From positions 1 through 41,469 of IMG/VR virus record IMGVR_UViG_3300004457_000033: a DNA stretch of 41,469 bases, one strand, 5' to 3'. Both the position numbers and the translations under genes were made by a program. The DNA comes from a virus. The notes beneath the pieces are model-generated. The model was not told the origin of the DNA and ran no database searches. It saw only the letters and a program-made list of their open reading frames with translations. This document shows, piece by piece, positions 4,263 through 26,057 of this stretch (the stretch's first letter is position 1; every line of letters starts with the position of its first letter).

Positions 4263-4694
4263 TTATTTTTTTAACTCATCAACCTGAGTATGTGGATCTT
4301 TGCCGTTTGGATATCTTTCGATAATTTCGGCGGTCTTTTTATTTAACTCTTTAATCCAGCCATCCTTTATTTTTGGAGGTCTATCGTCTGTAAACTTCTC
4401 GTTAATCATCGAGTCTCTTAAAACTGCAAGACAAGAAAGAGCTTTAGTGATATGTGATATTCCGCTATCTGGGTCAATATCCTCTCCTTCCCACCAAGCC
4501 ATTAAATGTCTCATTGCGGCATCGTAGTAAACCGAAGCCCTAACTCCGATTACTCTGTAGTTGTGTCTGCCATACTTTCTATCTCCTTCTAGCATAGCGA
4601 GTCCCATTTCCATTAATACTGGCGCTGAAACTGTTGACATAGGGACCTTTTTAACTCCAACAGCGTCCTTAGGATTTGAATTCTTAATAATCAT
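4263..4694 (-). CDS. dATP/dGTP diphosphohydrolase-like protein (MazG-superfamily phage family)
   Basis: 143 residues beginning with NPKDAVG and then MEMGLAMLEGDRKYGRHNY, VYYDAAMRHLMAWWEGEDID and SHITKALSCLAVLRDS. These are the hallmark segments of the phage dATP/dGTP diphosphohydrolase N-terminal family (formerly DUF5664), related to all-alpha NTP pyrophosphatases; the E/D residues in GDRKYG, WWEGED and the downstream D bind magnesium. A related enzyme, MazZ, works in 2-aminoadenine phages, but no PurZ is visible here. Likely role: shaping purine dNTP pools. It is the first gene of the leftward operon, with a promoter whose -10 ends 7 nt before ATG, predicting a leaderless transcript. Confidence 0.75.
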   Translation of the reverse strand: MIIKNSNPKDAVGVKKVPMSTVSAPVLMEMGLAMLEGDRKYGRHNYRVIGVRASVYYDAAMRHLMAWWEGEDIDPDSGISHITKALSCLAVLRDSMINEKFTDDRPPKIKDGWIKELNKKTAEIIERYPNGKDPHTQVDELKK

Positions 4695-4701
4695 AAGTAA
4701 T

Positions 4702-4730
4702 AATGTAGACTATATATTACATTTTGTCAA
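4702..4730 (-). promoter_or_regulatory. Leaderless promoter of the leftward operon
   Basis: TTGACA (4730-4725), 17-bp spacer, TACATT (4707-4702), then 7 nt and ATG at 4694. Transcription starting about 7 nt after the -10 would begin on the start codon. It is divergent from the promoter at 4748-4776; the two -35 boxes are 17 bp apart, so a single regulator could control both. Confidence 0.75.
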
Positions 4731-4741
4731 GCATTTAAAAT

Positions 4742-4762
4742 GTTTACTTGACATTAAACCCC
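4742..4762 (+). repeat. 21-bp inverted repeat, left copy (operator candidate)
   Basis: GTTTACTTGACATTAAACCCC occurs here and, perfectly, as its reverse complement at 5344-5364. The repeat contains the -35 box of the promoter for the gene at 4784 and flanks the two-gene cassette 4784-5340. A protein bound here would block that promoter, so autoregulation by the HTH protein at 4975 is a reasonable inference. Confidence 0.8.
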
Positions 4763-4776
4763 CCTTGGTGTATATT
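4748..4776 (+). promoter_or_regulatory. Leaderless promoter of the HTH cassette
   Basis: TTGACA (4748-4753), 17-bp spacer, TATATT (4771-4776), then exactly 7 nt and ATG at 4784. It is a near-consensus sigma70 promoter embedded in the 21-bp repeat, and the transcript would start on or next to the start codon. Confidence 0.8.
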
Positions 4777-4783
4777 GTTGGCT

Positions 4784-4978
4784 ATGGAAATAAAAGGACA
4801 AGTAATTATTAACTTCAACATATTGGATTTAGACAATATTTCATCTTCAATTCTATTCGGGGAAGATTTGGAGCCCCATCAAATAGAAAAAATATCAAAA
4901 CATCTGAGTTCTCAAAAAAGGATCAAACAGCAATCCGAGGTTATATCAGATATGATGAGACAATATGGAACTAAATGA
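4784..4978 (+). CDS. Small hypothetical protein preceding the HTH protein
   Basis: 64 residues from ATG 4784 (MEIKGQVIINFNILDLDNIS). An upstream in-frame ATG at 4748 lies inside the -35 box and is excluded. The C-terminal half (EPHQIEKISKHLSSQKRIKQ) is helical and basic. No family recognised. The stop overlaps the start of the next gene by 4 nt (ATGA), so the two are translationally coupled; the pair may be a regulatory or replication-control module. Confidence 0.65.
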   Translation: MEIKGQVIINFNILDLDNISSSILFGEDLEPHQIEKISKHLSSQKRIKQQSEVISDMMRQYGTK

Positions 4979-5340
4979 AGAAAAATATTAAAAATATACC
5001 GAAAAAACCACTAAGAGATTCTTTTAAAGGAATCTGGATACCTAGGAGCATATGCCTGAATACGGAGCTTACAAACACTGAGCAAAAATTAATCGGTGTT
5101 GTTTATGCGCTTTCTCAGACAAAAGAAGCTAAAAAATATGGAGGATGTTTTGCGACAAACTCGTATCTTGCAACCATTATGTCAACTAGCAAAGGATCTA
5201 TAGCAAAAATGCTTTCAGATTTAAGAAATAAAAAGCAAATAAAGAGCATCGAAAGTCAGCATTCTATGAACGATAGGATGAGGGTTTTAAAGGTAATTAG
5301 TTCTGCAAAAGACTTCAAAAAGGGGTTTAACACAGATTAA
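4975..5340 (+). CDS. Winged-helix HTH protein (replication-initiator or repressor type)
   Basis: 121 residues. The core FKGIWIPRSICLNTELTNTEQKLIGVVYAL, followed by FATNSYLATIMSTSKGSIAKMLSDLRNKKQI (residues about 18-90), matches the HTH_36 type of winged helix found in plasmid and phage replication or partition regulators: 'x-Leu-T-x-x-E-K-L' entry helix and a recognition helix near TSKGSIAKML. It is flanked by an inverted repeat that includes its own promoter, and further TTAAACCCC half-sites lie at and just after its 3' end. This suggests autoregulation or initiator binding to iteron-like sites. A plain transcriptional repressor is an equally good reading. No nuclease or enzymatic motif is present. 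Confidence 0.7.
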   Translation: MKKNIKNIPKKPLRDSFKGIWIPRSICLNTELTNTEQKLIGVVYALSQTKEAKKYGGCFATNSYLATIMSTSKGSIAKMLSDLRNKKQIKSIESQHSMNDRMRVLKVISSAKDFKKGFNTD

Positions 5341-5352
5341 TAAGGGGTTTAA
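5322..5352 (+). repeat. Direct GGGGTTTAA repeats
   Basis: GGGGTTTAA occurs at 5322-5330 and 5344-5352, spaced 22 bp start to start (about two helical turns), and its reverse complement lies in the promoter at 4754-4762. The first copy is inside the end of the HTH gene. Regular spacing suggests repeated protein-binding sites. Confidence 0.6.
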
Positions 5353-5364
5353 TGTCAAGTAAAC
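5344..5364 (-). repeat. 21-bp inverted repeat, right copy
   Basis: Reverse complement of 4742-4762 without mismatch. It lies 3 nt after the stop of the HTH gene. It contains a reversed TTGACA but no good -10 follows it, so it is more likely a binding site than a second promoter. Confidence 0.8.
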
Positions 5365-5368
5365 CAGT

Positions 5369-5441
5369 GTTTAATAATATTAAACCATATAGTATAGATA
5401 TACTAAAGTAGATAGAAAAGTATTATATTTCATATAATACT
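5369..5441. other. Cluster of three perfect palindromes in the 209-bp intergenic gap
   Basis: Three dyads follow one another: GTTTAATAATATTAAAC at 5369-5385, AGTATAGATATACT at 5391-5404, and 10-bp arms AGTATTATAT / ATATAATACT around TTC at 5419-5441. All are AT-only or nearly so. Together with the GGGGTTTAA repeats just upstream and an HTH protein of replication-initiator type, they could be an operator region or a replication origin. None is followed by a T-run, which argues against a simple terminator. From 5442 to 5512 I see nothing further. Confidence 0.55.
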
Positions 5442-5512
5442 CGGAATCCTGTTTTAATGTATTTTTCGTAAACTCAAAATACTAATATTCTTCGTTCCTC
5501 AGAACATTAAGC

Positions 5513-5541
5513 TTGACATATATTTTAAAATGGTATATTAT
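5513..5541 (+). promoter_or_regulatory. Leaderless promoter for the gene at 5550
   Basis: TTGACA (5513-5518), 17-bp spacer, TATTAT (5536-5541), 8 nt, ATG at 5550. An overlapping TATATT with a 15-bp spacer is less favourable. Confidence 0.7.
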
Positions 5542-5549
5542 TGTAGATA

Positions 5550-5897
5550 ATGAAAGAAACAACACCTTTATTTTTCGAGGACGCATTCTACGAACAATTT
5601 TCCGTAGATTCTGGAATCATTGCTTTTTTTGTTTCTGTAAAGAACACAAAAGACCCCCTAAAATCATTTGATGATATGTTTGATTTTTGGATAGATCATA
5701 AAAAAAGAATAGTTAAGAATATTATTGAGATTTCTTTGGAAGTAAATAAGGAGCCAGAAAAATATTCAGAAGAATATAGAGAAATTTACGGAGGTATACA
5801 ATTGGAAGATTATGAAATAAACTCAAACAAAGCATTGTTAAGTTTAAAAACTAAAATGAAAAACGAATTTAAAGAATTCTTAGAAAAAACAAAGTAA
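5550..5897 (+). CDS. Hypothetical protein
   Basis: 115 residues, beginning MKETTPLFFEDAFYEQF, acidic and mainly helical, with a charged C-terminal helix (LSLKTKMKNEFKEFLEKTK). No motif or family recognised. It is first in a transcription unit with the gene at 5902 and the helicase at 6281, after its own promoter. Confidence 0.65.
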   Translation: MKETTPLFFEDAFYEQFSVDSGIIAFFVSVKNTKDPLKSFDDMFDFWIDHKKRIVKNIIEISLEVNKEPEKYSEEYREIYGGIQLEDYEINSNKALLSLKTKMKNEFKEFLEKTK

Positions 5898-5901
5898 AAA
5901 T

Positions 5902-6264
5902 ATGAATGTAATAGATATTGAAAAAATTAAAAAACTTAAGTCTCACAAAGATTTCTATCAGTCTATGATAAACGAGTTCTATAATGATGCTCTAGAAATA
6001 TACGGAGGCGACGAAGATGTGTTTATTGATTATTTTATGAATGATCTGAGTGATCTAGAAGAGATATTAGATTTTAAAAAAATTAATGAAGATGAGTTAG
6101 TCAGGCTAACGCCAGTTAAGGAACATAAGAACGGAGATGTTTCATATTTGCTTGAATATGCAGAAGAGTTTAAAAATAAATTAATTCAACATGGTATAGA
6201 AAATCCAACAGAAGAAGATGTTGGAAAATATGTATTAAAGTCACTTGAAAATTGGTTAGATTAA
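5902..6264 (+). CDS. Acidic hypothetical protein
   Basis: 120 residues, strongly acidic (ALEIYGGDEDVFIDYFMNDL, LEEILDF), all-alpha by appearance. The gap to the previous gene is 4 nt and to the helicase 16 nt. No family recognised; the high acid content could fit a DNA-mimic or a binding partner, but nothing specific supports that. Confidence 0.65.
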   Translation: MNVIDIEKIKKLKSHKDFYQSMINEFYNDALEIYGGDEDVFIDYFMNDLSDLEEILDFKKINEDELVRLTPVKEHKNGDVSYLLEYAEEFKNKLIQHGIENPTEEDVGKYVLKSLENWLD

Positions 6265-6280
6265 CTTTTAAAATAGTATC

Positions 6281-7732
6281 ATGGAGTTAACTAGAGAACA
6301 GAGTGAAATCTGCGAGTCAGAGGGTAATATTATTGTAGATGCTGTTAGCGGAAGTGGTAAGACCTCTACATTGGTAGAATATGCTAAGAAAAGACCAGAT
6401 AAAAAATTTCTTTATTTATGTTTTAATAGGTCTGTTAGAGACAGTGCCGAGTCTAAATTTCCAGAAAATGTAGAAATTAAAAATACACACTCGCTGGCTT
6501 ATCGCTGGACAAACGCTTATCAATGGGAATTGGCAAAATCTTTTGATGTCTTTGACGTTATTAATATATTAAAAATCAAAAAGAAAAAAGGGGTTGAAAA
6601 TTTCGATGCGAAAATAGCAGGACACATTTTAACTTGTTTAAATTCTTATACCAATTCAGGTGTTTTGAATATAGACGATTTTGACTATTTAAGTTATTCC
6701 CAGTCAAGTTTTTCTCATGAAAATTTAGAACAAATTCAAAATGGCTTTAAAAACATCTATGGCAAAATGGAGGATGGAGAAATCCCCATTATCCATAATT
6801 TTTATCTGAAAGAATTTCAGAAGATGGAGCCAAACCTAGATTACGATTATATTCTTCTAGACGAATCACAAGATACAAATCCCTGCGTAATTGATATATT
6901 CTCAAAACAGAGCACAAATAAAATAGTAGTTGGAGATGCGTTTCAGGCAATTTACTCTTGGATTGGTGCTGAAAATGCTCTACTAAGATTCAACGAAACA
7001 GATAATTATCAAAACCATAAACTTACAAATTCTTTCCGTTTTAGACAAGACTTAGCTAATCTTGCAATGCAAGTTATTCAGCTCAAGAAGCACATTGGAA
7101 TCGACGTTGATGACTTTAAAATAACTGGTATAGGAAATTGTAACAAGTTAGATAGTCATGCTTATATTGCCCGCTCGAATGTAAACCTGATAATAAAAGC
7201 CGCTGATGTAGTTTCTCAAACTAGGGATTCCATACACTTTGAGGGAAATATCAATAATTATATCTTTGCCGATGGAGTTGGTATATATGATGTCTTTAAT
7301 TTGTGGTCTGGAAACAAAGGTAAACTTCGTAATAAATTCCTTCAAAAGTTTGATTCTTATGAGGAATATAGAGACTTTCTTTCTGAAATTGGCAATAATG
7401 ATCAAGAAATTTTATGCTCTTTAGTAGAAAAATACAAAAGGAATGTTTTTAAAGTTATTGAAGAAATAAGAAAAAGAAATATTAATAAAGAAGAAGCCGA
7501 TATCGTGCTTTCTACAACTCATAAAGCCAAGGGGCTAGAATACAATACCGTCGAGCTTGCAAACGATTTTATAACGGAGAATACCATTATTGAATCAGAA
7601 ATCGATGATTACCCTCGATTATCTGAGGAAATCAACGCACTTTACGTTGCGACAACAAGAACTCAAAATAAAATTGATTTTCCCTTCCATTATCTAGAAG
7701 ATTATGCATCACTAAACAAGAGCAAATTATAA
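6281..7732 (+). CDS. UvrD/Rep-like superfamily 1 DNA helicase
   Basis: An ATP-dependent DNA-unwinding enzyme for recombination, repair or replication. SF1A motifs appear in order: Q-motif TREQSEI at residue 4, Walker A AVSGSGKTSTL (21-31), motif Ia YLCFNRSVRDSA, TxH at KNTHSLAYRW, Walker B LLDESQDTNP (about 192), motif III VVGDAFQAIYSWIGA, motif IV NSFRF, motif V STTHKAKGLEY and motif VI ALYVATTRTQNKI near the C-terminus. At 483 residues it is much shorter than bacterial UvrD (about 720), so the 1B/2B insertions are reduced, as in compact phage and F-box-type helicases. It ends immediately before the ATG of the glycosyltransferase gene, so both are likely co-transcribed. Confidence 0.92.
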   Translation: MELTREQSEICESEGNIIVDAVSGSGKTSTLVEYAKKRPDKKFLYLCFNRSVRDSAESKFPENVEIKNTHSLAYRWTNAYQWELAKSFDVFDVINILKIKKKKGVENFDAKIAGHILTCLNSYTNSGVLNIDDFDYLSYSQSSFSHENLEQIQNGFKNIYGKMEDGEIPIIHNFYLKEFQKMEPNLDYDYILLDESQDTNPCVIDIFSKQSTNKIVVGDAFQAIYSWIGAENALLRFNETDNYQNHKLTNSFRFRQDLANLAMQVIQLKKHIGIDVDDFKITGIGNCNKLDSHAYIARSNVNLIIKAADVVSQTRDSIHFEGNINNYIFADGVGIYDVFNLWSGNKGKLRNKFLQKFDSYEEYRDFLSEIGNNDQEILCSLVEKYKRNVFKVIEEIRKRNINKEEADIVLSTTHKAKGLEYNTVELANDFITENTIIESEIDDYPRLSEEINALYVATTRTQNKIDFPFHYLEDYASLNKSKL

Positions 7733-8530
7733 ATGAGTAAAATATCACTAGCTACATCCGCATTCAATATCGTCAAAAATGACTTCGACATTGAGGACGC
7801 AATTAAAAACTGGTCTCACTACGTTGACGAAATAGTTATTGCTACGATTCCGAGTGAAGATAATACGGAAGAAGTCTTGGATCAAATCAAAAATCAGTCT
7901 GAAGTTAAAATCAAAATTATTAAGCTTGATGATTCCACAGACGTTATTGGATGGGATGGAAGAATTAAAAATGCGGCACATCAAGGAGCAACTCATGACA
8001 TTGTTGTTCAAATTGATCTTGATGAAAGAATGGGTGGAAAAGTAGATGTATGGAAGGGTGCGGCTGAGACATTGATGAGATCAAAAGAAAACGTTAAGGC
8101 TTTAATGATTCCATCGGTCAACCTATTTGGGGGTTATTATACTTATTCTGATATCGGTAAAAAATGGTATATGTGCCTGAAGGAGGGAGTGCAAAGGGGT
8201 ATTGTTAATTTTGCTAAAACAGAAGAGGGATTCGACAGAACAAAATCTGACTCAACCGAAGCTATTGATAAAGACGGCAACCTCGTTCCTTCGGCTGACC
8301 TTGTTTTATCTACTGGAAAATGGACTGATTTAGAATATTGTAAAAAAAGAATGCCATTTGTCTGGCACTTGGGATATTTATCTCTATCTCGTCGTACAAA
8401 GCTTAATAAGGAATTTTGGAAAGAAAAGTGGGATAGTTACGGAGAAGGGGAGTCAGACGTAATAGTAGATATTGAAAGTTTTGAAAAAAAAGAAGTTTTT
8501 AAACATGGAATAGATATAGATTTTCTTTAA
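7733..8530 (+). CDS. GT-A glycosyltransferase-like protein
   Basis: 265 residues. The start SLATSAFNIVKNDFDIEDAI, the strand WSHYVDEIVIATI followed by DNTEEVLDQI, and the DxD-like IDLDER (residues about 92-97) fit a GT2-type nucleotide-diphospho-sugar transferase. The conserved FVWHLGYLSLSRR segment near the C-terminus is typical of this group of phage and LPS glycosyltransferases. Acceptor and sugar are unknown. It follows the helicase stop directly and opens a sugar-gene run. Confidence 0.75.
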   Translation: MSKISLATSAFNIVKNDFDIEDAIKNWSHYVDEIVIATIPSEDNTEEVLDQIKNQSEVKIKIIKLDDSTDVIGWDGRIKNAAHQGATHDIVVQIDLDERMGGKVDVWKGAAETLMRSKENVKALMIPSVNLFGGYYTYSDIGKKWYMCLKEGVQRGIVNFAKTEEGFDRTKSDSTEAIDKDGNLVPSADLVLSTGKWTDLEYCKKRMPFVWHLGYLSLSRRTKLNKEFWKEKWDSYGEGESDVIVDIESFEKKEVFKHGIDIDFL

Positions 8531-8531
8531 A

Positions 8532-9344
8532 ATGTTACCAGAAAAGAAAAAACTTTTAATAGTATTATGCTCTTGGAATTATCCCAAGATGCTTAAAGCT
8601 TCTATAGACTCTCTTTTAAAAGCTAAAAATTCAATAGACTATGACATTGCAGTTGTTCTCAACGAAGGAGACAAAGAGTCTGTAGATTTTCTAATAGAAA
8701 AAAATATTTATTTCTTTTACTCTCCTAAAAATCATGGGGTATTGGCGATAGATTTTTTGAGTCCTTTAATTTCATTTTATGAATATGTAATAAATACTAA
8801 TGACGATATGATTTTCTTTAAGGGTTTTGCAGAAAATGTAATCGAATTAATGGAAACAGATAATTATTGTTCTGTATCTATTCCTCTAGTTGAAAATTTT
8901 GGAAGCAACAGTACTTTTGTGATTGTAGATAAAACTTTAAAAAGTGTGCTTGACAAGGATTCTGTAGATTTATTTATAGAAAATCATAAAAATGGAAAAT
9001 ACTTTTTTGATCATTTAAAAATTAATTATAATCATCCTATTTGCGTAAGATCTGCTGATTGGTTTGAGGTTGGCGGATATTCACATAATTGGAATGAAAA
9101 TTTTTCTAGTGGATATGTTATGGACGATTTTTTCACGTATAAATTGTTAGTGAAGTATGAGTCCAAAAAGCCCCCAGTATCTTGCAACAAATCTTTTGTT
9201 TTTCATGAATCTTCTGCATCAATGCACAGACTTTCTGATAAAATTAGAAATAATAAAAACAATGTTAATGAATTCATAAAACAAACTGGACTCAGTATAT
9301 CTGATTTTATAGGTAAACTGGGATGTGGTAGAGAAGTAAAGTGA
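8532..9344 (+). CDS. GT2-family glycosyltransferase
   Basis: 270 residues with LLIVLCSWNYPKMLKASIDSL, the typical GT2 N-terminal strand and helix, then the acidic NTNDDMIFF (residues about 94-102) in place of the DxD site, and VRSADWFEVGGYSHNWNENF, the acceptor-side 'GGY/F' segment. It ends with HESSASMHRL. One nucleotide separates it from the previous gene and it overlaps the methyltransferase by 4 nt. The sugar transferred may be the one built by the three enzymes that follow. Confidence 0.8.
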   Translation: MLPEKKKLLIVLCSWNYPKMLKASIDSLLKAKNSIDYDIAVVLNEGDKESVDFLIEKNIYFFYSPKNHGVLAIDFLSPLISFYEYVINTNDDMIFFKGFAENVIELMETDNYCSVSIPLVENFGSNSTFVIVDKTLKSVLDKDSVDLFIENHKNGKYFFDHLKINYNHPICVRSADWFEVGGYSHNWNENFSSGYVMDDFFTYKLLVKYESKKPPVSCNKSFVFHESSASMHRLSDKIRNNKNNVNEFIKQTGLSISDFIGKLGCGREVK

Positions 9345-10501
9345 AAAATATTTTTTTAAAAACAGAGTTACCCTTGGCAGGAAACTTTTTGTCAAAAGAC
9401 AAAATTGGAACAGACACCTCTTACCCCTTTTCCTTGTCCTTTGATGATGAAACTCTTTTGGTAGAAGTGGTTGAGAAGATAGATCCAAATATAATATTTA
9501 AAAATTATTTCTACAAAACTGGATCTATCAAAACTCTATCAAATCACCTAAAAAATACTGCAAAAATTATAAAAAATAGAGATGTGTCTCTTAAAATTTG
9601 CGATATTGGTTGTAATGATTTTACATTTTTAAAAGAATTTGCAGACAGTTCAGAAATTGTTCTGGGAATCGATCCAAGTGATGTTTCAAAAAAATTTAAG
9701 CCAGATAATATAGATCTAGTTAATGATTTTTTCAACTACGATCAGTCTAAAAAAATTAAAGAAAAATATGGTGAGTTTGATATTATTTTCAGCAGTAATA
9801 ATTTCGCCCACATTAATGAGATCGATGATTACGCAAATGGAGTCGCTAACTTAATTAAGGATGACGGAAAAATTGTTATCGAAGTTCATTGGCTCAAAAC
9901 TTTGATTAAAAACTTTCAAATAGGATTCTTATATCATGAGCATGTTTATTATTATTCTCTAAAAGCTTTGAATAATCTTTTATCAAAGAGCGGTTTATAT
10001 GTTAATTCTGTTGATAAAATTGATATTCATGGCGGATCAATAAGGGTGTTCTGTAGTAAGCAAAATTACCAAGACGAGTCTGTTGAAAATATGTTTAAAG
10101 AAGAAGCGGATTTTGGATTGTACTCTTTGGATGTATTTAAAAAATTTTTCAAAAAAATAGAAAAGCTAAAAAAAGAAACTAGAAGCTTTTTTGAATCTAT
10201 TAAAAAAGGGGATAAAAAGGTTTATGGCTATGGTGCGTCTGGACAAGCCAATACCCTTATGACCCTAATGGGTATTAACAGTGAAGATTTGGAATATATA
10301 ATAGATGACTCACCTCTAAAATCAGAAAAGTTTACCCCCAATAATTATATCCAGATTCGTAATGGTAATTTTTTTATTGAAAACCCTCCAGATGTAGTAT
10401 ATATTATGGCCTACACTTTTCAAAAAGAAATAAAACAAAATAACAAATGGTTTAAGGGGGAGTGGGTTCATCCATTTAATTTACACAATGCTTCGAAATA
10501 A
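9341..10501 (+). CDS. SAM-dependent sugar C-methyltransferase
   Basis: 386 residues starting at GTG, overlapping the previous stop (GTGA). The order is that of nucleotide-sugar C-methyltransferases: an N-terminal region like the zinc-binding domain (PLAGNFL, YPFSLSF, IIFKNYFYKTGSIKTLSNH), a SAM-binding core (ICDIGCNDFTFLKEF, near 85), EVHWLKTLIKNFQIGFLYHEH, IHGGSIRVFC, and the C-terminal domain with YGYGASGQANTL (about 297), YIIDDSPLKSEKFTPN and a final WVHPF. Family members methylate 4-keto-6-deoxy sugars at C3. The N-terminal zinc-ligand cysteines are absent, which is unusual. With the two SDR enzymes downstream it suggests a branched deoxy sugar. Confidence 0.85.
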   Translation: MKNIFLKTELPLAGNFLSKDKIGTDTSYPFSLSFDDETLLVEVVEKIDPNIIFKNYFYKTGSIKTLSNHLKNTAKIIKNRDVSLKICDIGCNDFTFLKEFADSSEIVLGIDPSDVSKKFKPDNIDLVNDFFNYDQSKKIKEKYGEFDIIFSSNNFAHINEIDDYANGVANLIKDDGKIVIEVHWLKTLIKNFQIGFLYHEHVYYYSLKALNNLLSKSGLYVNSVDKIDIHGGSIRVFCSKQNYQDESVENMFKEEADFGLYSLDVFKKFFKKIEKLKKETRSFFESIKKGDKKVYGYGASGQANTLMTLMGINSEDLEYIIDDSPLKSEKFTPNNYIQIRNGNFFIENPPDVVYIMAYTFQKEIKQNNKWFKGEWVHPFNLHNASK

Positions 10502-11402
10502 AAATATTTTAATTACAGGTGGTGCCGGTTTTTTAGGAAGAAATATAATCAAGAGGTATTATTCGGACAATCATATAACATGCTACTCAAGAGATGAGTC
10601 AAAGCATTATCTATTGAAAAAGGAGTTTCCAAAAGTTAATTTCATTATAGGTGATATTTATGATTTTGATAGCCTAAACCAAGCGGCAAAGAACAATCAG
10701 ATAGGAATTTTTGCCGCGAGCATGAAGCAAATAGAGGCATGTGAAGAAAACCCACAGCAAGCAGTTAGGACTATCTGTATGGGGGCAATAAATTCAAAAA
10801 AAGTTTGTTTGGATAATCATTTCGAAGCAGGAGCCTTCATATCCTCAGACAAGGCGTGTGCGGCTACAACTATTTATGGTGCTTGCAAGTATGTTGCAGA
10901 ACAATCTTTTTTGAATGACTCAGAAATAAAATTAAACTCTTGCAGATATGGCAACGTTACAAATTCTACTGGATCAATCATACCAATCATAAAGCAATCT
11001 TTAGTAAATAAAAAAGAGATTGAACTGTTCTCAGAAGAAATGACAAGATTTTTAATTTCTCCTAGTCACGCCATAGGCCTTATTGAAGAGTCGTTGACTG
11101 GAGACTTGAATGGGGTTTTTATTCCAAAATTAAAATCAATTAGGATAAAAGATCTTTTAGAAATTTACAAAGAAGAGTTCAATTTAAAATATAGAGTATC
11201 AAATCCTAGGGCAAACGAAAAGATTCATGAATTAATGTTTTCTTCCGAAGAGGCTCCTAGAATAACCGAGAGAGAATCTTTTTTTGTGATATCAAAAGAC
11301 TCAACTGAGTCAGGAATAAGAAAACAGTATTCTAGCGAAGATAGTGTAATGGAAAAAGAAGAGTTGTATAGAGAATTAAAATCAAATGGATTTTTCTTAT
11401 AA
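10488..11402 (+). CDS. NAD-dependent nucleotide-sugar dehydratase/epimerase (PseB/CapD-like SDR)
   Basis: 304 residues. GGAGFLGRN near the N-terminus binds NAD(P) (GxxGxxG). The segment IFAASMKQIEACEENPQQAV, then FISSDKACAATTIYGACKYVAE, has the SDKA...YxxxK arrangement of UDP-GlcNAc 4,6-dehydratases and CapD/FlaA1-type enzymes. RYGNVTNSTGSIIPIIKQ and TRFLISPSHAIGLIEES complete the pattern. It probably makes a 4-keto-6-deoxy sugar nucleotide that is methylated by the preceding enzyme and reduced by the next. The ATG overlaps the previous gene by 14 nt. Substrate is not predictable from sequence alone. Confidence 0.85.
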   Translation: MLRNKNILITGGAGFLGRNIIKRYYSDNHITCYSRDESKHYLLKKEFPKVNFIIGDIYDFDSLNQAAKNNQIGIFAASMKQIEACEENPQQAVRTICMGAINSKKVCLDNHFEAGAFISSDKACAATTIYGACKYVAEQSFLNDSEIKLNSCRYGNVTNSTGSIIPIIKQSLVNKKEIELFSEEMTRFLISPSHAIGLIEESLTGDLNGVFIPKLKSIRIKDLLEIYKEEFNLKYRVSNPRANEKIHELMFSSEEAPRITERESFFVISKDSTESGIRKQYSSEDSVMEKEELYRELKSNGFFL

Positions 11403-13033: not shown

Positions 13034-13074
13034 TATAAGATAAAATATTTTTTACAGATCTCCTTCTCTAAGTG

Positions 13075-13080
13075 TAATAC
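13075..13080 (+). promoter_or_regulatory. Putative -10 box, five bases before ATG
   Basis: TAATAC followed by 5 nt and ATG at 13086. The sequence CTTCTCTA-AGTGTAATAC is the same as at 23101-23130 except that 12 bp between CTTCTCTA and AGTGTAATAC are missing here. The spacing therefore does not fit a TTCTCT -35; TTACAG at 13052-13057 is a weak alternative at 17 bp. Confidence 0.4.
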
Positions 13081-13085
13081 TTAGT

Positions 13086-13525: not shown

Positions 13526-13565
13526 TTTTTAAGGCTTAACAAAAAAATGTAATATTAGCTTACCT

Positions 13566-17063: not shown

Positions 17064-17081
17064 CTAATATGGGGTTTATTT

Positions 17082-17110
17082 TTCTCATTTCTATATTGTT
17101 ATTGTAATAT
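17082..17110 (+). promoter_or_regulatory. Class-2 promoter: TTCTCA, 17 bp, TAATAT
   Basis: TTCTCA (17082-17087) and TAATAT (17105-17110) are 17 bp apart, and 5 nt separate TAATAT from ATG at 17116. The same geometry recurs at 23102, 28844 and 38569. Confidence 0.6.
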
Positions 17111-17115
17111 AAACT

Positions 17116-17484: not shown

Positions 17485-17512
17485 TTGAAAAATACTTCTT
17501 TATGCCTAGAAT
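17485..17512 (+). promoter_or_regulatory. Leaderless promoter for gmd
   Basis: TTGAAA (17485-17490), 16-bp spacer, TAGAAT (17507-17512), then 5 nt and ATG at 17518. It matches the layout of the other leaderless promoters, though with a weaker -35. Confidence 0.5.
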
Positions 17513-17517
17513 AGGGC

Positions 17518-18567
17518 ATGAAAAAGATTTTAATTACAGGTGTAAGCGGTCAAGACGGATCGTTAATGGCAGACTATCTTTTAGGATTGGGTCACGAGGT
17601 ATATGGGCTGGTCAGGCACTCTGCTTCAACAAATGATCGAAATTATGCCCATAATCTAGATAATAAGAATTTTCATTTAGTTGCTGGTGATATTACAGAT
17701 TTCTCTTGTATGTGTCACATAGTCCAGAGTATACAGCCAGACTATTTTATCAATTTAGCCGCAATGTCTTTTGTTGCTGAAAGTTGGAATTCTCCAGTAT
17801 CAACATTTGAAATAGATGCCAACGGAGTTTTATACTGCTTGGAAGCCATTAGGCTTCATCAGCCAAAGTGCCGTTTTTATTCGGCAGGAACAAGCGAACA
17901 GTTATCCGAAGTAGATTATGTTCCTCAAGACGAGAATCACAAAAGAACTGCTAAGTCACCATATGGAGCAGCGAAAATAGCTGCAGAGCAGTTGGTTAGA
18001 GTTTATAGAAATTCTTATGACTTGTACGCCATTCATGGTATTTTGTTTAATCATGAAGGTATTCGAAGAAACGAATGTTTTGTGTCTCGCAAGATTACAA
18101 CTAATGTAGCTAGAATAAAAAAAGAATTAGACGAAGGAGAGATTCCTAAACCGCTAGAAATAGGTTTTTTAGATAGCGAAAGAGACTGGTCTGATGCTGA
18201 AGATTTTGTTCGTGGAATTTGGATGATGTTAAACCAAGATGGTTCTCCAAAAGAGTACGTATTATCTAGTGGTGAGTGCCACAGCGTTAGAGAATTTGTC
18301 GAAAAAGCATTTGAAGTGGCTGGAATCAAGGGACTTTGGGAAGGCGAGAAAGAGCTAGAAAAATATACTATGTCTTCCTCTCGTTATCACGCGAAACAAG
18401 TCGATCTGGTTACTATAAATCCAAAATTTTATCGCCCCTTCGAAGTTACCAAGCTACATGGTAGTTATGCAAAAATTAAAAAGGATCTAGGATGGGAACC
18501 AAAGATTAATTTCGAAGAGTTAGTAAAGAAAATGGTAGATAACGATATTAAACTGATTAACAGTTAA
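17518..18567 (+). CDS. gmd: GDP-mannose 4,6-dehydratase
   Basis: Converts GDP-mannose to GDP-4-keto-6-deoxymannose, the precursor of GDP-fucose, GDP-rhamnose and perosamine. 349 residues, the normal length. Motifs: ITGVSGQDGSLMADYLLGLG at the N-terminus (NADP-binding GxxGxxG with the family-specific GQDG), HLVAGDITD, NLAAMSFVAESW, the catalytic AGTSEQLSE (Thr/Glu), SPYGAAKIAAEQL (YxxxK), ILFNHEGIRR, KITTNVARIKK, LGFLDSERDWSDAEDFV and DLGWEPK. The match to the family is strong over the whole length, except that the usual SELYG is replaced by SEQLS. No GDP-fucose synthase follows; the reductase at 11386 might serve, or host enzymes finish the sugar. Confidence 0.93.
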   Translation: MKKILITGVSGQDGSLMADYLLGLGHEVYGLVRHSASTNDRNYAHNLDNKNFHLVAGDITDFSCMCHIVQSIQPDYFINLAAMSFVAESWNSPVSTFEIDANGVLYCLEAIRLHQPKCRFYSAGTSEQLSEVDYVPQDENHKRTAKSPYGAAKIAAEQLVRVYRNSYDLYAIHGILFNHEGIRRNECFVSRKITTNVARIKKELDEGEIPKPLEIGFLDSERDWSDAEDFVRGIWMMLNQDGSPKEYVLSSGECHSVREFVEKAFEVAGIKGLWEGEKELEKYTMSSSRYHAKQVDLVTINPKFYRPFEVTKLHGSYAKIKKDLGWEPKINFEELVKKMVDNDIKLINS

Positions 18568-19976: not shown

Positions 19977-20005
19977 TTGACAATCAATACATCTTATGGT
20001 ATATT
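19977..20005 (+). promoter_or_regulatory. Leaderless promoter for the RecA operon
   Basis: TTGACA (19977-19982), 17-bp spacer, TATATT (20000-20005), 7 nt, ATG at 20013. Near-consensus on all points and the cleanest example of the class, located directly after the stop at 19974. Confidence 0.8.
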
Positions 20006-20012
20006 GGTTTGA

Positions 20013-20300
20013 ATGGAAGATAAAGTATTAAAAAATAACGAAGACTCTTCAATGATAGAGATCAATAGTGCGGTTGATTTATCCAAGTATAGATCAAACT
20101 CTCTGATTGTAGCTAAAATCGACAAGTCTGTTTTAGAAAACGAAGAAATGTATAACGCTATGCGAAAGCTTTTCGACGATCTCAGATTAAAAGTTGACAT
20201 TGATGATAGTACCCATTTTATTATTACCGCAGAAGAGGTTGATATTCATTCTTGGACTGAACAAGAGCTCTCTGAAATCGGTTGGTGCAAGAACAAATAG
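20013..20300 (+). CDS. Hypothetical protein
   Basis: 95 residues, acidic (MEDKVLKNNEDSSMIEINSA). The middle, LIVAKIDKSVLENEEMYNAM, then DLRLKVDIDDSTHFIITAEEV, looks like a small alpha/beta unit. No family recognised. First gene of the unit that contains recA, with a predicted leaderless start. Confidence 0.65.
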   Translation: MEDKVLKNNEDSSMIEINSAVDLSKYRSNSLIVAKIDKSVLENEEMYNAMRKLFDDLRLKVDIDDSTHFIITAEEVDIHSWTEQELSEIGWCKNK

Positions 20301-20902: not shown

Positions 20903-20912
20903 AAATATAATT

Positions 20913-22025
20913 ATGACAGCAAAAAAAACAAAAAAGAAAGCAGAAGGTTTAACGCCAGAAGAGCTATTGACTCAGACTCTTAAAGACAATAAGACAGATC
21001 ATTATAACTTTGAGAAAACAACTTATTATGAAATAAGCCAAGGAAGCTTACTTTTAGATTTGCATGTTGGAAAAATCACCCCTGGAGTTGTTCGACATGT
21101 TGGCGTTTCAAGAGGTGGAAAGACCTCTCAAATGCTTGAAGATTTAAAACAATTTCTAAAAGCCATGCCAGATGGAAGAGGGTTCTGGGTTCTTGCCGAA
21201 GGACGCTTGAGCGAGAAAATTAAAAAGCGTTCTGGCTTAAAATTTGTTTATAATCCAGAAGATTGGGTTGATGGTTCAGTATTCGTATTAGAGTCTAATG
21301 TTTACGAACTGGTCTTTGATACTATTAGAAAATTGCTAGCTAATAATCCGCTCAATAAAAAGTATTTTTTCGTTATTGATTCTACCAACGGTCTTAAAAG
21401 CAAGGCAGATCTTGAAAAGGGAAGTAGCGAAGCAACTAAGGTAGCTGGAGGTGCGGTAATGACGTCTGATTTCCTTAGCAGGGTAACACTCGCAATGACT
21501 AAGTTTGGACACATTCTTGGCGTAATCGGACAGGTCAGAGCCAAACCTAAAATCAACCAATACGAAAAACAAGATCCATCTTTATCTAATGCAACTGGAG
21601 GTAATGCATTAGATCACTATCCAAATATTTTCCTCCAATATGAGCCCAAATATAAGTCAGATATTATTGGCGATGCTAGCGATCCACTAGGTCACTGGGC
21701 TAAAGTAATTGTCGTTAAAACCGACAACGAAAAAACCACCATCGTTAAATATCCCATTAAATACGATCAAGATGGCAAGGGCGGTTCCGTTTGGAGAGAG
21801 TACGAAATTGCAGACTTAATGCTTCAATGGGGAATGCTAACGAAAGCGGGCGCTTGGCTTAAGATGTGCAGTAATTTAACAAAAGAACTTATTGCAGAGG
21901 GCTTTATCGACAAAGAGGACGAAGAGTTTTCTATTCAAGGTATGGACAAGCTTCGCGAATGGTTAGAGCAAAACTCGGATCTCACGGATTACATGTTCAA
22001 TAAGTTTGAGAAACTTCTTTCTTGA
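20913..22025 (+). CDS. RecA/UvsX-like recombinase
   Basis: ATP-dependent DNA strand-exchange protein for recombination-dependent replication and repair. In 370 residues: Walker A GVSRGGKT (64-71), a Walker B strand KKYFFVIDSTN (about 145-155), followed by KVAGGAVMTSDFLSRVTLAM and ILGVIGQVRAKP, which resembles the RecA 'N Q' segment, then NATGGNALDHYPNIFLQY. It ends with a C-terminal domain containing IAEGFIDKEDEEF. Closer to phage recombinases than to bacterial RecA in the segments I can recall. It starts after an A-rich tail of the previous gene without a Shine-Dalgarno site and overlaps the next gene (TTGA). The basic N-terminus (TAKKTKKKAEG) is typical of phage DNA-binding proteins. Confidence 0.85.
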   Translation: MTAKKTKKKAEGLTPEELLTQTLKDNKTDHYNFEKTTYYEISQGSLLLDLHVGKITPGVVRHVGVSRGGKTSQMLEDLKQFLKAMPDGRGFWVLAEGRLSEKIKKRSGLKFVYNPEDWVDGSVFVLESNVYELVFDTIRKLLANNPLNKKYFFVIDSTNGLKSKADLEKGSSEATKVAGGAVMTSDFLSRVTLAMTKFGHILGVIGQVRAKPKINQYEKQDPSLSNATGGNALDHYPNIFLQYEPKYKSDIIGDASDPLGHWAKVIVVKTDNEKTTIVKYPIKYDQDGKGGSVWREYEIADLMLQWGMLTKAGAWLKMCSNLTKELIAEGFIDKEDEEFSIQGMDKLREWLEQNSDLTDYMFNKFEKLLS

Positions 22026-22423
22026 AGATTAAAAATATATTCGGCAAGGAAGTTAGCAAGTCTTTTAAAAAATATAAGATAGATTGGGATAGAAAGGTAT
22101 CAAATCCTCAAAAAAGGGTAAAAGATATTGTTAAAAATTATTGGCTTGCATCAGATTGTTATGAAGAGCTTTACATTCCAAATAGCAAACTGAGGGTAGA
22201 TTTATTTAATGCTTCCGAAAAAACCGTCATTGAAGTTTCTCCCCTACAGCATCAACAATATAATGCTTTTCTACACGGATCTAGATTAAACTATCTTGAA
22301 GCTCAAAAAAGAGACCTACAAAAAATAGAGTGGTGCGATATTAATAATTTTAAATATATTGAGATTGATGAGCAAGATCTAAAAGGCACGGATGAAGATA
22401 TATTGAGCAAAATACTAGGCTAA
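22022..22423 (+). CDS. PD-(D/E)XK-type nuclease-like protein, copy 1
   Basis: 133 residues from a TTG that overlaps the recA stop. YIPNSKLRVDLFNASEKTVIEVS (about 56-78) reads as D-x9-E-x-S: the acidic pair of a PD-(D/E)XK site with the usual Lys replaced by Ser. NYLEAQKRDLQKIEWCDINN and IEIDEQDLKG resemble the downstream helix-strand of VSR/DUF559-like endonucleases. It aligns with the next gene at several points (IDW near 20, the EVS/EVD core, the K-x-EW helix). A resolvase or recombination-linked endonuclease is plausible next to recA, but the altered lysine makes activity uncertain. Confidence 0.6.
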   Translation: MKIKNIFGKEVSKSFKKYKIDWDRKVSNPQKRVKDIVKNYWLASDCYEELYIPNSKLRVDLFNASEKTVIEVSPLQHQQYNAFLHGSRLNYLEAQKRDLQKIEWCDINNFKYIEIDEQDLKGTDEDILSKILG

Positions 22424-22437
22424 TAATTAAATTTATT

Positions 22438-22875
22438 ATGTTATTCAAAATTATAGGCTCTAAAAGAAGAGTAAAGCGTGACCTAAGAGAACATATAATA
22501 GACTGGGATGCCAAAATAAAAAGGGGCGGTAAAAAAAACTTTGGAAAGCTTCAATATAATGTAAAACAACTTTTAAGACCTCACTGGGAATTACATGTAG
22601 TAAACGAAGAGTTTGTTATTCCTGCGACAAGAAGCGAAAGGGGAAGAAGTATTGACTTTGTTAATTTTACAACAAGAACTTGCGTTGAGGTAGATGGGAT
22701 ACAGCATAATAAAAAAAGTTGGTGTCATAAAAACAAATATCAATTTTTCAAACAACTTCGTAACGACAGTTGGAAAGAGCAGTGGGCAGAACTTAATGGC
22801 TTTAATATGTTTAGAATTTATGAAACTGACGAACTAAATGACGAATTATTATATAAACTTGGAATTATTTCTTGA
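22438..22875 (+). CDS. PD-(D/E)XK-type endonuclease-like protein, copy 2
   Basis: 145 residues. RGRSIDFVNFTTRTCVEVDG (63-82) gives D-x9-E-x-D, followed by IQHNKKSW, LRNDSWKEQWAELNGF and MFRIYETDE, which is the VSR/DUF559-like order (core strand, DxxR/K..W helix, final RxxxxE strand). The first half, IIDWDAKIKRGGKKNFGKLQ, matches the IDWDRKV segment of the upstream gene, so the two are diverged tandem duplicates. Probable DNA endonuclease acting with the recombinase. Its last codons contain the -35 box of the promoter for 22905. Confidence 0.62.
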   Translation: MLFKIIGSKRRVKRDLREHIIDWDAKIKRGGKKNFGKLQYNVKQLLRPHWELHVVNEEFVIPATRSERGRSIDFVNFTTRTCVEVDGIQHNKKSWCHKNKYQFFKQLRNDSWKEQWAELNGFNMFRIYETDELNDELLYKLGIIS

Positions 22876-22899
22876 CTTTCCCAAAAAACATGTTAAATT
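22872..22899 (+). promoter_or_regulatory. Leaderless promoter for the gene at 22905
   Basis: TTGACT (22872-22877), 16-bp spacer, TAAATT (22894-22899), 5 nt, ATG at 22905. The -35 overlaps the stop codon of the endonuclease gene. Confidence 0.65.
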
Positions 22900-22904
22900 A
22901 ACTT

Positions 22905-23099
22905 ATGAAAAATAAAGAAAAGCTCAAAAAGGTTAGTCTTCTTTTAAACGAAATGAAGGTTTTCGTTGCTTATTTAGAAGATATTCACAAAGATTTAGAT
23001 ACCAGAAAATCGGAATCAGAATCTTGTGATAGACCTTGGGGAGCTATAAAAAATCGTGCTAAATCTTTTAGAAATAGTCTTTTAGAATTCTATCGATAA
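22905..23099 (+). CDS. Small helical hypothetical protein
   Basis: 64 residues (MKNKEKLKKVSLLLNEMKVF), helical and charged, with SCDRPWGAIKNRAKSFRNSL at the end. No family recognised. It has its own predicted promoter and is followed by a second promoter before the phosphoesterase gene, so it may be a single-gene transcript. Confidence 0.6.
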   Translation: MKNKEKLKKVSLLLNEMKVFVAYLEDIHKDLDTRKSESESCDRPWGAIKNRAKSFRNSLLEFYR

Positions 23100-23101
23100 G
23101 C

Positions 23102-23130
23102 TTCTCTAGAACCCCCTCAAAGTGTAATAC
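23102..23130 (+). promoter_or_regulatory. Class-2 promoter: TTCTCT, 17 bp, TAATAC
   Basis: TTCTCT (23102-23107), exactly 17 bp, TAATAC (23125-23130), 5 nt, ATG at 23136. No TTGACA is present at the -35 position. Confidence 0.6.
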
Positions 23131-23135
23131 TAATT

Positions 23136-24431
23136 ATGGAAAAAAAATTAATCGAAAAATGCGTTTCTATGTTCCGAGATGGAGCAGGAAAAATGGAAGT
23201 AGTTAGGCTAATCATGGAATGGACTGGCTTAAAAGAAACTGCCGCAAGAAGTAGGGCAACAAATATCTGGAACAACGAGTTTGAAGAGGAATATGTTCCA
23301 GTCTCAAATCGAGGACAAGAAGGTTTTAAATCTGAAGATAATGGTTTTAAATCTGGCGGGACAAGGTTTGACCAGAATGACGAAAACAACGCAACAGCTG
23401 AATCTAAAAATGAGAACATAAGAACTTTAGAAGACTTACTTGAAGTTTGTAATGTTGATTTAGAATACTGGGAGGTTGAGAGACATATAATTAATAAATG
23501 GGAGGTTGCCGCTAAAGATAATATAGGCGAGCTTCGACATTCTCCACTTTATCAAGTCAAGGCTTGGCTAAAGAAGCGTGAAGTAAAAAATGCAGAGGAG
23601 GTCGTAAATTACTTCAACGAATCCCTTAAGGGTATTTCTCCTAAAGTTCAAAAAAGAAATGCTGGCGGAAAATATATGTATGAAATTTCCATACCCGATC
23701 TTCATTTGGCTAAGCTAGGATGGGAACCAGAATCTGGACAGGATTATGATGTTAATATCGCCGCTAATTTATTTAGATCGGCAGTAAAAGACCTCTTAAG
23801 TAAAGTAAATTTAGATGAGGTATGCAAGGTTCTTCTTCCAGTCGGCAATGACTTTTTCAATTCAGAGGGTCTTTCTGGAGCCACTACTGCAGGCACTCGA
23901 CAAGATGATGATTCTAGATGGCAGAAGTCTTTTAGTATTGGTTGCAATTTGATCTCAGAAGTTGTTGATGAATTATCTAAAAAGGTTAATGTAGATATCG
24001 TTATTGTTCAAGGAAATCATGATTTCGAGAGAGACTATTATCTTGGAGAATTCTTAAGAGCTTGGTATAGAGGCAATGAAGCAGTAAATATAAATAATAG
24101 CCCCAAGTCTAGAAAGTATGTTGAATTTGGAGAAAACCTTATTTTGTTTACTCACGGAAATGAAGAAAAGCAAAGCGAACTTCCATTATTGATGGCTACC
24201 GAGCATCCCAGCTTTTCACAATGCAAATTTAGAACAGCACATTTGGGACATCTTCATCAAACAAGGGTGGTAGAAAACAAAGGTGTTACAGTAAAAATCC
24301 TTCCGTCTCTTTGTGCTAGTGATGCATGGCACAAGATTAAAGGATTTTGTGGAAATAGAAGATCCGCTATGGGCTTTTTATATGATCCAGTTTATGGAGA
24401 AGTAGCAAACTATTACTACAACGTAGTTTAG
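23136..24431 (+). CDS. Calcineurin-like metallophosphoesterase with N-terminal helical extension
   Basis: 431 residues. The N-terminal 170 residues are helical (AARSRATNIWNNEF; SPLYQVKAWLKKREV) and of unknown fold, with a Gly/Asn-rich linker near 58-90. The C-terminal phosphoesterase domain has the metal motifs in order: DLHL (188-191), GND (237-239), QGNHDFERD (about 287-295), LFTHGNEE and HLGHLHQ (about 370). This is a nuclease or phosphodiesterase family; SbcD is a relative, but no SbcC ATPase is adjacent. Location between recombination endonucleases and the DnaB-like helicase points to a role in DNA processing. TRQDDDSRWQKSF after GND is typical for large-phage members as far as I recall. 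Confidence 0.85.
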   Translation: MEKKLIEKCVSMFRDGAGKMEVVRLIMEWTGLKETAARSRATNIWNNEFEEEYVPVSNRGQEGFKSEDNGFKSGGTRFDQNDENNATAESKNENIRTLEDLLEVCNVDLEYWEVERHIINKWEVAAKDNIGELRHSPLYQVKAWLKKREVKNAEEVVNYFNESLKGISPKVQKRNAGGKYMYEISIPDLHLAKLGWEPESGQDYDVNIAANLFRSAVKDLLSKVNLDEVCKVLLPVGNDFFNSEGLSGATTAGTRQDDDSRWQKSFSIGCNLISEVVDELSKKVNVDIVIVQGNHDFERDYYLGEFLRAWYRGNEAVNINNSPKSRKYVEFGENLILFTHGNEEKQSELPLLMATEHPSFSQCKFRTAHLGHLHQTRVVENKGVTVKILPSLCASDAWHKIKGFCGNRRSAMGFLYDPVYGEVANYYYNVV

Positions 24432-24503
24432 CCATCAAAATAAACTTATCATTTAGGCTGTGCGTCCGATCCGCATAGTCTATTTGTTAACTTACGTATG
24501 ATA

Positions 24504-24519
24504 CCGAAATATATTTCGG
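24504..24519. repeat. 16-bp perfect palindrome upstream of the helicase promoter
   Basis: CCGAAATATATTTCGG is fully self-complementary, followed by the smaller ACATATATGT. It lies 24 bp before the -35 of the helicase promoter, a position suited to an activator or repressor site. There is no T-run, so it is not a typical terminator. The rest of the 147-bp gap holds a weak TGCG/CGCA dyad near 24461-24476. Confidence 0.6.
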
Positions 24520-24542
24520 GAACATATATGTATTAATTGTAC

Positions 24543-24571
24543 TTGACTAGTAACAAAAACTACTATAAAAT
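24543..24571 (+). promoter_or_regulatory. Leaderless promoter for the helicase-primase operon
   Basis: TTGACT (24543-24548), 17-bp spacer, TAAAAT (24566-24571), 7 nt, ATG at 24579. Confidence 0.75.
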
Positions 24572-24578
24572 ATAGCGT

Positions 24579-26057
24579 ATGCCAAAAATTATAAGCGGTC
24601 CGAATGACCAAAGTTTAGAGCGAAAATTCTTAGGAGGACTAATCCACAATGGAGTTGATGTCTGGATTGATATTTGCGACTTTATAAAGGAAGAAGATTT
24701 CACAAATAGTGGAGCTAGGATGCTATTTAAAGTGTGTAGGCTTCTTTTAGAAGAGAATAAGACATTAGATTCTGCCATCATATCTTCACGTTGCAAATCC
24801 CAAGGGATTACAATTAGCGAAGGGAATGTAGGAGACTTTATAGAAAATCTTTTGATTTCTCCTTTAAATGTTAAGTCTAGCGTTGAAGCGGCGCAGGAGT
24901 TGATAATGCTCCGAATTCGCAGAAATAAAATAGGCAATGCTAGAGACATTGCTAAATTTTCTCAAGACTTCGAAGGAACAAATTTATCAGATTTTGCAAA
25001 TGGAGCGGAAGAAATCTTCGCAAATGGTAACGATATTATCCTCGACAAGCACGAGCCAGTCAATATTGCTCAAAGTGCCTATGAAATCGTAGAAGAGCTT
25101 GGCAATAACGATGGTGAATACGCCATTAAGACGCCTTGGCCTACCTTTAACGCCGCTTTCTCTGGCTTTCGACCCAAGGACTCATATTGTATAGCAGGAA
25201 GACCCTCACACGGCAAATCTGGCGTTTTACTTTCCCTTGCTCAATTTTGTGCCAACGAAATCGAAGACAACTTTATTGATGGAAAAAGATTGCCAGTTCT
25301 ATATTTAGATACCGAAATGGATGCGAAAGAGCAAACACTTCGTTGGGCGGCGATGGTAGCTGATGTTGACCCATTTTTAGTCGAAAGTGGAGACTGGAGG
25401 AAAAACAAAGATTGCGTAGAAAAGATTAGAACCGTCCTTAAAGACAAATCTTCTACCGATAACTTCCACCACGTTTATGTTCCTGGTCTTTCGGCTATGG
25501 AAATTCGTTCGATTTTTCGTCGATGGGTTAGAAAAACCTGTGGTCGAGATAACGTAGGAATTGTAGTTTTTGATTATCTGAAAATCACTGGAGAAGAACT
25601 TAAGGGAGCATCAAATCCAAGACTTGAAATGGGCTATAAGCTCGATATGCTCAAGGATGAAATTAAAGATAACTCTAATTGCACCTTTCTGTTTGGAGCT
25701 CAAAGAAATAGATATGGGGAAGATGATGATAGTTCTATCGCAGAGTCAGATTATATTCAGCAACTTTCCACTTGGACTGGTCTGATTAAAAAGAAATCTA
25801 TGGCTGAGCTCGCAGAACAGCCAGCAGATGAATTCGGCACTCACATGTTGATACCTACAAAATTCAGAAAGCTTGGTAGGGATGGTCAAAACTTTGAAAA
25901 TCCAGTCAAGATTGAGGGGAAGTATTTAAGAAACTGGATTAACCTTGATTTCTCTAACTTTAGATTTAATGACAAGGACGATGGTAGAGCAGTTCAAGAT
26001 TATCTAAGTCTAGTTGCCTCTAATAACGGTAACAACAATAGACGGCAAATACCATAA
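24579..26057 (+). CDS. dnaB: DnaB-like replicative helicase
   Basis: Hexameric helicase that unwinds the phage replication fork. 492 residues. The N-terminal domain begins QSLERKFLGGLIHNG and includes EEDFTNSGARMLFKVCRLLL, the DnaB N-terminal helical fold. The C-terminal RecA-like motor has TPWPTFNAAFSGFRPKDSYC, Walker A AGRPSHGKSG (206-215), LYLDTEMDAKEQTLRWAAM (H1a region), IVVFDYLKIT (Walker B) and FLFGAQRNR (the Q/R motif). A linker helix region lies between. It opens a unit with the primase 12 nt downstream. Confidence 0.93.
   Translation: MPKIISGPNDQSLERKFLGGLIHNGVDVWIDICDFIKEEDFTNSGARMLFKVCRLLLEENKTLDSAIISSRCKSQGITISEGNVGDFIENLLISPLNVKSSVEAAQELIMLRIRRNKIGNARDIAKFSQDFEGTNLSDFANGAEEIFANGNDIILDKHEPVNIAQSAYEIVEELGNNDGEYAIKTPWPTFNAAFSGFRPKDSYCIAGRPSHGKSGVLLSLAQFCANEIEDNFIDGKRLPVLYLDTEMDAKEQTLRWAAMVADVDPFLVESGDWRKNKDCVEKIRTVLKDKSSTDNFHHVYVPGLSAMEIRSIFRRWVRKTCGRDNVGIVVFDYLKITGEELKGASNPRLEMGYKLDMLKDEIKDNSNCTFLFGAQRNRYGEDDDSSIAESDYIQQLSTWTGLIKKKSMAELAEQPADEFGTHMLIPTKFRKLGRDGQNFENPVKIEGKYLRNWINLDFSNFRFNDKDDGRAVQDYLSLVASNNGNNNRRQIP

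Follow-up and report, generated by a model that had tools for sequence, protein, structure and literature searches.

The window, by which we mean the whole stretch of DNA that was analysed, is the 41,469-base IMG/VR virus record IMGVR_UViG_3300004457_000033, with a GC content of 33%. Its genes include a dATP/dGTP diphosphohydrolase-like gene, a GDP-mannose dehydratase-like gene (start 17518), a RecA/UvsX-like gene (20913; UvsX-like phrog_97, E=2.8e-24) and a DnaB-like helicase gene (24579). Gene starts were called from codon statistics alone, without promoter information. No tRNAs or RNA families were found in the window. In one ORF (31118-32428, with the start called at 31163), a cupin-like stretch at the N-terminus is fused to an NAD-dependent epimerase domain.

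The window belongs to a family of aquatic phages, from which we used a near relative, G001 (IMGVR_UViG_3300020469_005214, 141,669 bases, 93-98% amino-acid identity to the window), a second near relative, G002, and a distant relative, G003, whose RecA is 40% identical. A wider sample pooled 41 non-redundant contigs, all carrying the phage NrdB, with 798 genes. The phage collection held no nucleotide match to the window and no protein match to the capsid, sigma and PEP-CTERM proteins of G001; therefore, the host could not be read from a named relative.

Host-type promoters adjoining start codons

The initial annotation had reported seven TTGACA-like/-10 promoters whose -10 box ends 5-8 nt before a start codon, four of them at exactly 7 nt. 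This claim held in full: all seven are present in the sequence, with spacers of 16-17 nt, a TANNNT -10, and -10-to-start distances of 5, 5, 7, 7, 7, 7 and 8 nt. The -35 is TTGACA or TTGACT (TTGAC) in six of them and TTGAAA in one, that of 17518, which is the weakest of the set.

4263..4694, minus strand: dATP/dGTP diphosphohydrolase-like gene (PF18909, dGTP_diPhyd_N, E=4e-26)
4695..4730, minus strand: promoter of this gene (start 4694); TTGACA 4730-4725, N17, TACATT 4707-4702, 7 nt, ATG
4748..4783, plus strand: promoter of 4784; TTGACA 4748-4753, N17, TATATT 4771-4776, 7 nt, ATG
5513..5549, plus strand: promoter of 5550; TTGACA 5513-5518, N17, TATTAT 5536-5541, 8 nt, ATG
17485..17517, plus strand: promoter of the GDP-mannose dehydratase-like gene (17518); TTGAAA 17485-17490, N16, TAGAAT 17507-17512, 5 nt, ATG
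19977..20012, plus strand: promoter of 20013; TTGACA, N17, TATATT 20000-20005, 7 nt, ATG
22872..22904, plus strand: promoter of 22905; TTGACT, N16, TAAATT 22894-22899, 5 nt, ATG
24543..24578, plus strand: promoter of the DnaB-like helicase gene (24579); TTGACT, N17, TAAAAT 24566-24571, 7 nt, ATG

The gene at 20013 is a small one that heads a run with the RecA/UvsX-like gene, two genes upstream of the latter. The promoters of 4694 and 4784 stand back to back in an 89-nt divergent gap, and this arrangement is retained in G001. Their divergent -35 elements (4725-4753) form a near-palindrome, TGTCAAG...CTTGACA, which could double as an operator.

Alignment with G001 shows that the placement outlasts many substitutions, and G002 has this geometry too. 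The geometry of the 4694 promoter is retained at 62152 (minus strand) of G001 despite many such changes, and at 24579 the G001 spacer is 1 nt shorter while the placement before the start is unchanged.

The start codons themselves could be checked in three cases. Pfam matches begin at residue 6 (4694), residue 5 (17518) and residue 8 (24579) of the products, and at 17518 a Rossmann nucleotide-binding motif runs from residue 3, so that a later start codon is not credible there. The annotated start is the true start for these three genes, and support of this kind is limited to them.

Several cases had been missed by the initial annotation, namely 37471, probably 39664 and 40361, and five starts behind a second class of promoter described below (13086, 17116, 23136, 28878 and 38603). 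The counterpart of the 37471 promoter in G002 reads TTGACA, and the arrangement at 39664 is conserved in G001.

37435..37470, plus strand: added leaderless-type promoter of 37471; CTGACA 37435-37440, N17, TACTAT 37458-37463, 7 nt, ATG
39629..39663, plus strand: probable promoter of 39664; TTGACT 29 nt before ATG, weak -10
40326..40360, plus strand: probable promoter of the C5-cytosine methyltransferase gene (ATG 40361); TTGACT 29 nt before ATG, weak -10

Promoter spacing and Shine-Dalgarno sites against controls

When TANNNT was searched alone it gave no clear peak, and the -35 was added to the search pattern because the hexamer by itself is too common in AT-rich DNA. We scored TTGAC-N17..19-[TC]ANNNT ending 4-9 nt before a called start, with 500 mononucleotide shuffles as the control; these keep base content but not dinucleotide content, which is a limit of the test. 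The pattern precedes 6 of the 57 called genes of the window (shuffle mean 0.04, maximum 1), 17 of 180 genes in G001 (0.13 in shuffles) and 6 of 48 in G003 (0.03 in shuffles). No gene of T4 or lambda carries it in the same test, and in crAss001 TTGAC is not enriched at the diagnostic distance from starts.

A genome-wide count of the 5-8 nt spacing, which the initial annotation had proposed as a check, was run in the 141.7-kb G001 and found enrichment. There, nine promoter matches end exactly 7 nt before a start and others fall elsewhere in the 5-9 nt range, giving 19 in this range; none lie at 3-4 or 10-12 nt, and the count stays at 0-5 in each of the remaining 5-nt bins out to 100 nt. A scan of G001 gave 11 matches with the pattern forwards versus 1 with the pattern reversed. 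The arrangement is found at only 3 of 1257 ATGs not called as starts in the window and 8 of 4279 in G001, and one of the three in the window is 4784, a true start missed by the gene caller. Across the 41 NrdB contigs, 43 TTGAC matches fall 27-33 nt before a start and 71 at the 87 remaining positions, so that the density is 7.5-fold in the former; 19 of these 41 contigs have no TTGAC match in the diagnostic interval. We conclude that the placement of host-type promoters is real, conserved, family-wide and far above chance.

Shine-Dalgarno (SD) motifs, defined as GGAG, GAGG or AGGA at -20 to -5, precede 3 of the 57 genes in the window (5%), matching the shuffled expectation of 4.5%. The corresponding values of 7% in G001 and 8% in G003 also equal the shuffled expectation, and the pooled NrdB contigs have the motif in 53 of 798 genes versus 46.9 expected. 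The controls T4 and lambda reach 51% (16% expected) and 47% (23% expected), respectively.

If transcription initiates on the A of ATG, it should follow the Y-R start rule, and a pyrimidine is therefore expected at position -1. Among ATG genes of G001 a pyrimidine is found there in 18 of 20 first-class (host-type) and 8 of 8 second-class cases, versus 66% of other genes. For the first class the preference is significant in G001 (Fisher p=0.037) and G003 agrees (p=0.031); in the pooled 41 relatives it is not significant (p=0.73). The G001 bias is consistent with transcription starting at the start codon, which remains an inference in the absence of transcript data.

A second promoter class and a candidate sigma factor

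A second class of promoter reads TTTCWY-N16-TGTAAT. In G001, TGTAAT lies 7-8 nt before nine starts and is seldom found elsewhere upstream. The -35 TTTC[TA][CT] occurs at a fixed 16-nt spacer from TGTAAT in 21 matches, versus 3 and 4 with two permuted -35s, and an overlapping TTCT variant of this -35 gives 14 matches. In this class the distance to the start is 7-8 nt for roughly half of the promoters and 12 nt or more for roughly half, some of them at 12-21 nt; the farther ones would be expected to leave leaders, mostly short and without an SD site. The window contains the following members.

13073..13085, plus strand: -10 TGTAAT with a weaker -35, 7 nt before ATG 13086; TGTAAT, 7 nt and ATG are also found in G001
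13548..13565, plus strand: -10-like TGTAAT, 12 nt before nrdB (13566); a short leader is expected, an exception to strict leaderlessness
17081..17115, plus strand: TTTCTC-N16-TGTAAT, 7 nt before ATG 17116
23101..23135, plus strand: CTTCTC-N16-TGTAAT, 7 nt before ATG 23136 (exonuclease-like gene); upstream sequence identical in G001
28865..28877, plus strand: -10 TGTAAT with a weaker -35, 7 nt before ATG 28878
38568..38602, plus strand: CTTCTC-N16-TGTAAT, 7 nt before GTG 38603

The two classes occupy mostly separate regions of G001. Most second-class genes fall at 3.5-36 kb or 128-134 kb and a few at 72-103 kb; those of the TTGAC class fall at 62-111 kb and close to 133 kb.

A candidate sigma gene is located at 121936-122631 of G001, between phoH and the terminase gene. 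Its product matches Sigma70_r2 (E=3.7e-5), its best NCBIfam match is TIGR02989 (E=9e-7), a Rhodopirellula/Verrucomicrobium sigma family, and it is conserved in terminase relatives down to 32-34% identity. The structural model, of modest confidence (mean pLDDT 63), folds into a pair of helical domains. ECF sigmas are its closest PDB matches, at a probability of 0.99 but with E values of 1.2e-3 or higher and low TM-scores. The protein thus shows both features of an ECF-type sigma, namely sigma region 2 and a helical domain at the C-terminus, though the sigma-fold matches are modest. It is a likely reader of TTTCWY-N16-TGTAAT; its recognition of this promoter, and so the pairing of sigma with class, is inferred. 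The linker between the helical domains is cysteine-rich, with Cys 84, 87, 96, 105 and 108 invariant in nine sequences.

Host, interpretation and known systems

In the cultured Verrucomicrobia phage P8625 (NC_029047) the strict TANNNT pattern misses the relevant cases, and the TTGAC-to-start distance was used instead. TTGAC lies exactly 30 nt before four starts (5448, 10772, 15594 and 17541), and the SD motif occurs in 7 of 52 genes versus 5.7 expected, which is the chance level. P8625 is thus a single phage with a known verrucomicrobial host that matches in promoter geometry and SD usage. Its four promoter regions also share a repeated GTATCC, arranged as GTATCC...GGATAC at 10772, which suggests a shared operator.

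Possible host-type cargo is seen in G001 only, where some proteins end in a PEP-CTERM-like tail, VPEPSxYALLLG...RRR, with domain scores that fall below curated cut-offs. In the literature, Verrucomicrobia are described as partly SD-scarce with an intact anti-SD (PMC10783764), and leaderless starts make up 10% of the mapped starts in Akkermansia muciniphila versus 0.4% in E. coli (PMC4782308). On the P8625 match, the PEP-CTERM-like proteins and this literature, we infer that the host is likely a member of Verrucomicrobiota.

The only family contig in the genome collection, PCCK01000047.1, sits inside a Porticoccaceae MAG and not in a Verrucomicrobiota bin. This MAG shows no promoter enrichment (20 matches versus 20 in the control), which makes misbinning plausible; we consider it the likely explanation, but it is unproven.

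Other features of G001 were observed alongside. Two adjacent genes (135450-136079 and 136072-136632) have signal peptide-like starts and PEP-CTERM-like C-termini and are followed by a putative beta-barrel porin gene; the product of the first has homologues in at least 13 other viral contigs, and no match to the beta-barrel protein turned up in a search of plasmids. Tail-region proteins at 812-3023 and 140121-141668 consist of repeats resembling leucine-rich (BspA-like) ones.

Taken together, we consider it likely that two promoter classes in this family give rise to leaderless or nearly leaderless messages in a verrucomicrobial, SD-independent host. RNA polymerase would start on the start codon or only a few nucleotides away from it, and the resulting messages would be read without an SD site by a host with largely SD-independent ribosomes. 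The host-type class, TTGAC[AT]-N17-TANNNT, would drive replication, nucleotide-metabolism and small early-region genes, and the phage-specific class, TTTCWY-N16-TGTAAT, would drive structural and some replication genes, probably via the phage ECF-type sigma; any early/late timing of the classes is likewise inferred. Since two unrelated -10/-35 pairs share the spacing, selection by the host translation apparatus, and not by one sigma, is suggested.

Measured against this reading, the earlier claim that SD sites are missing held, the motif being present only at chance level. The claim that the mRNAs begin at or within two bases of the ATG is supported by the spacing, with the start sites themselves inferred, and the claim that the placement says something about the host ribosome is supported indirectly by P8625 and by PMC10783764 and PMC4782308. 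Systematic leaderless expression is supported with the qualification that not every gene fits: leaderlessness is ruled out for genes inside operons, and roughly half of the promoters of the second class would leave leaders, mostly short ones. A bolder version would make leaderless placement the default for promoter-bearing genes of both classes because the verrucomicrobial ribosome loads on a 5'-terminal AUG, with the 7-nt spacing evolved independently in the phage-specific class. Direct initiation on a 5'-terminal AUG is an inference, and we could as readily argue against this version as for it.

It remains possible that the messages are only nearly leaderless, with initiation a few nucleotides upstream of the ATG and leaders of 1-8 nt, very short and unstructured, that the host ribosome tolerates. 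The variation of the -10-to-ATG distance from 5 to 9 nt and the second-class promoters 12-21 nt away speak for this; the mode at exactly 7 nt, the empty positions on either side of the peak and the -1 pyrimidine in G001, which fits a start on the A, speak against it. It is unlikely that the promoters are real but minor and that transcripts with ordinary leaders, reading through from promoters farther upstream, account for most expression of the genes. Such an account draws on 20013, 22905 and 17518, which lie in same-strand gene runs with gaps of 29-51 nt, but it does not suit the back-to-back promoters of the 4694/4784 gap, retained in G001, or the conservation of seven promoters at fixed spacing, and SD motifs are absent either way.

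A host in Bacteroidota, or another SD-poor bacterium, also seems improbable. SD sites are absent in Bacteroidota too (PMC10783764), but their promoter type differs, crAss001 lacks TTGAC enrichment at the diagnostic distance, and the PEP-CTERM-like proteins and the P8625 match favour Verrucomicrobiota. Chance or an annotation artefact in an AT-rich genome can be all but dismissed: -10-like hexamers are indeed many in such DNA and TANNNT alone is not clearly enriched, but the full -35/-10/start arrangement exceeds all 500 shuffles, is nearly absent at other ATGs and is conserved. We therefore retain leaderless or nearly leaderless transcription in a verrucomicrobial host as the preferred reading.

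Leaderless genes in bacteria and a few single phage genes are already known. If the preferred reading is true, leaderless messages from two promoter types in one phage family would mean that the constraint lies in the host translation machinery. Phages could then also be assigned to SD-independent hosts by this sequence signature, and leaderless initiation, little studied so far in Verrucomicrobiota, could be examined there with compact, strong promoter-start modules.

Among phages, lambda cI likewise has a message starting at its own AUG, and the lambda origin of this leaderless example is noted in PMC3160421; the lambda genome as a whole shows no enrichment in our test. Leaderless phage genes such as cI are isolated cases in SD-using hosts. 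The late promoters of T4 (TATAAATA, read by the gp55 sigma) resemble the second class in that they are phage-specific, have an AT-rich -10 and go with a sigma factor of the phage. They differ in that the TATAAATA -10 has no -35, whereas here a TTTCWY -35 stands 16 nt from a TGTAAT -10, and similarity of the phage sigma to gp55 was looked for and not found; this structure and the lack of gp55 similarity rule out T4-type late promoters for the second class. P8625, whose host is known (Puniceicoccales IMCC8625), shares the TTGAC-to-start distance and the chance-level SD usage but differs in its size of 33 kb, its GC content of 51% and its -10 boxes, TATTGG/TATCTG by eye; its relatedness to the window is not established.

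Among bacteria, the leaderless transcripts of Akkermansia muciniphila (Cappable-seq, PMC4782308) also come from host-type -10/-35 promoters; those are bacterial and measured, whereas ours are of a phage and predicted. A similar pattern is that of TA-led, predicted leaderless bacterial genes, which have a -10-like TANNNT about 10-12 bp upstream of the start and no SD site (Zheng et al. 2011, PMC3160421). These genes and the phage family are alike in -10 placement, in SD absence and in the inferred coincidence of start site and start codon, but the TA-led survey covered cellular genomes, whereas the arrangement here belongs to a phage family and to two classes of promoter, of which one is phage-specific.
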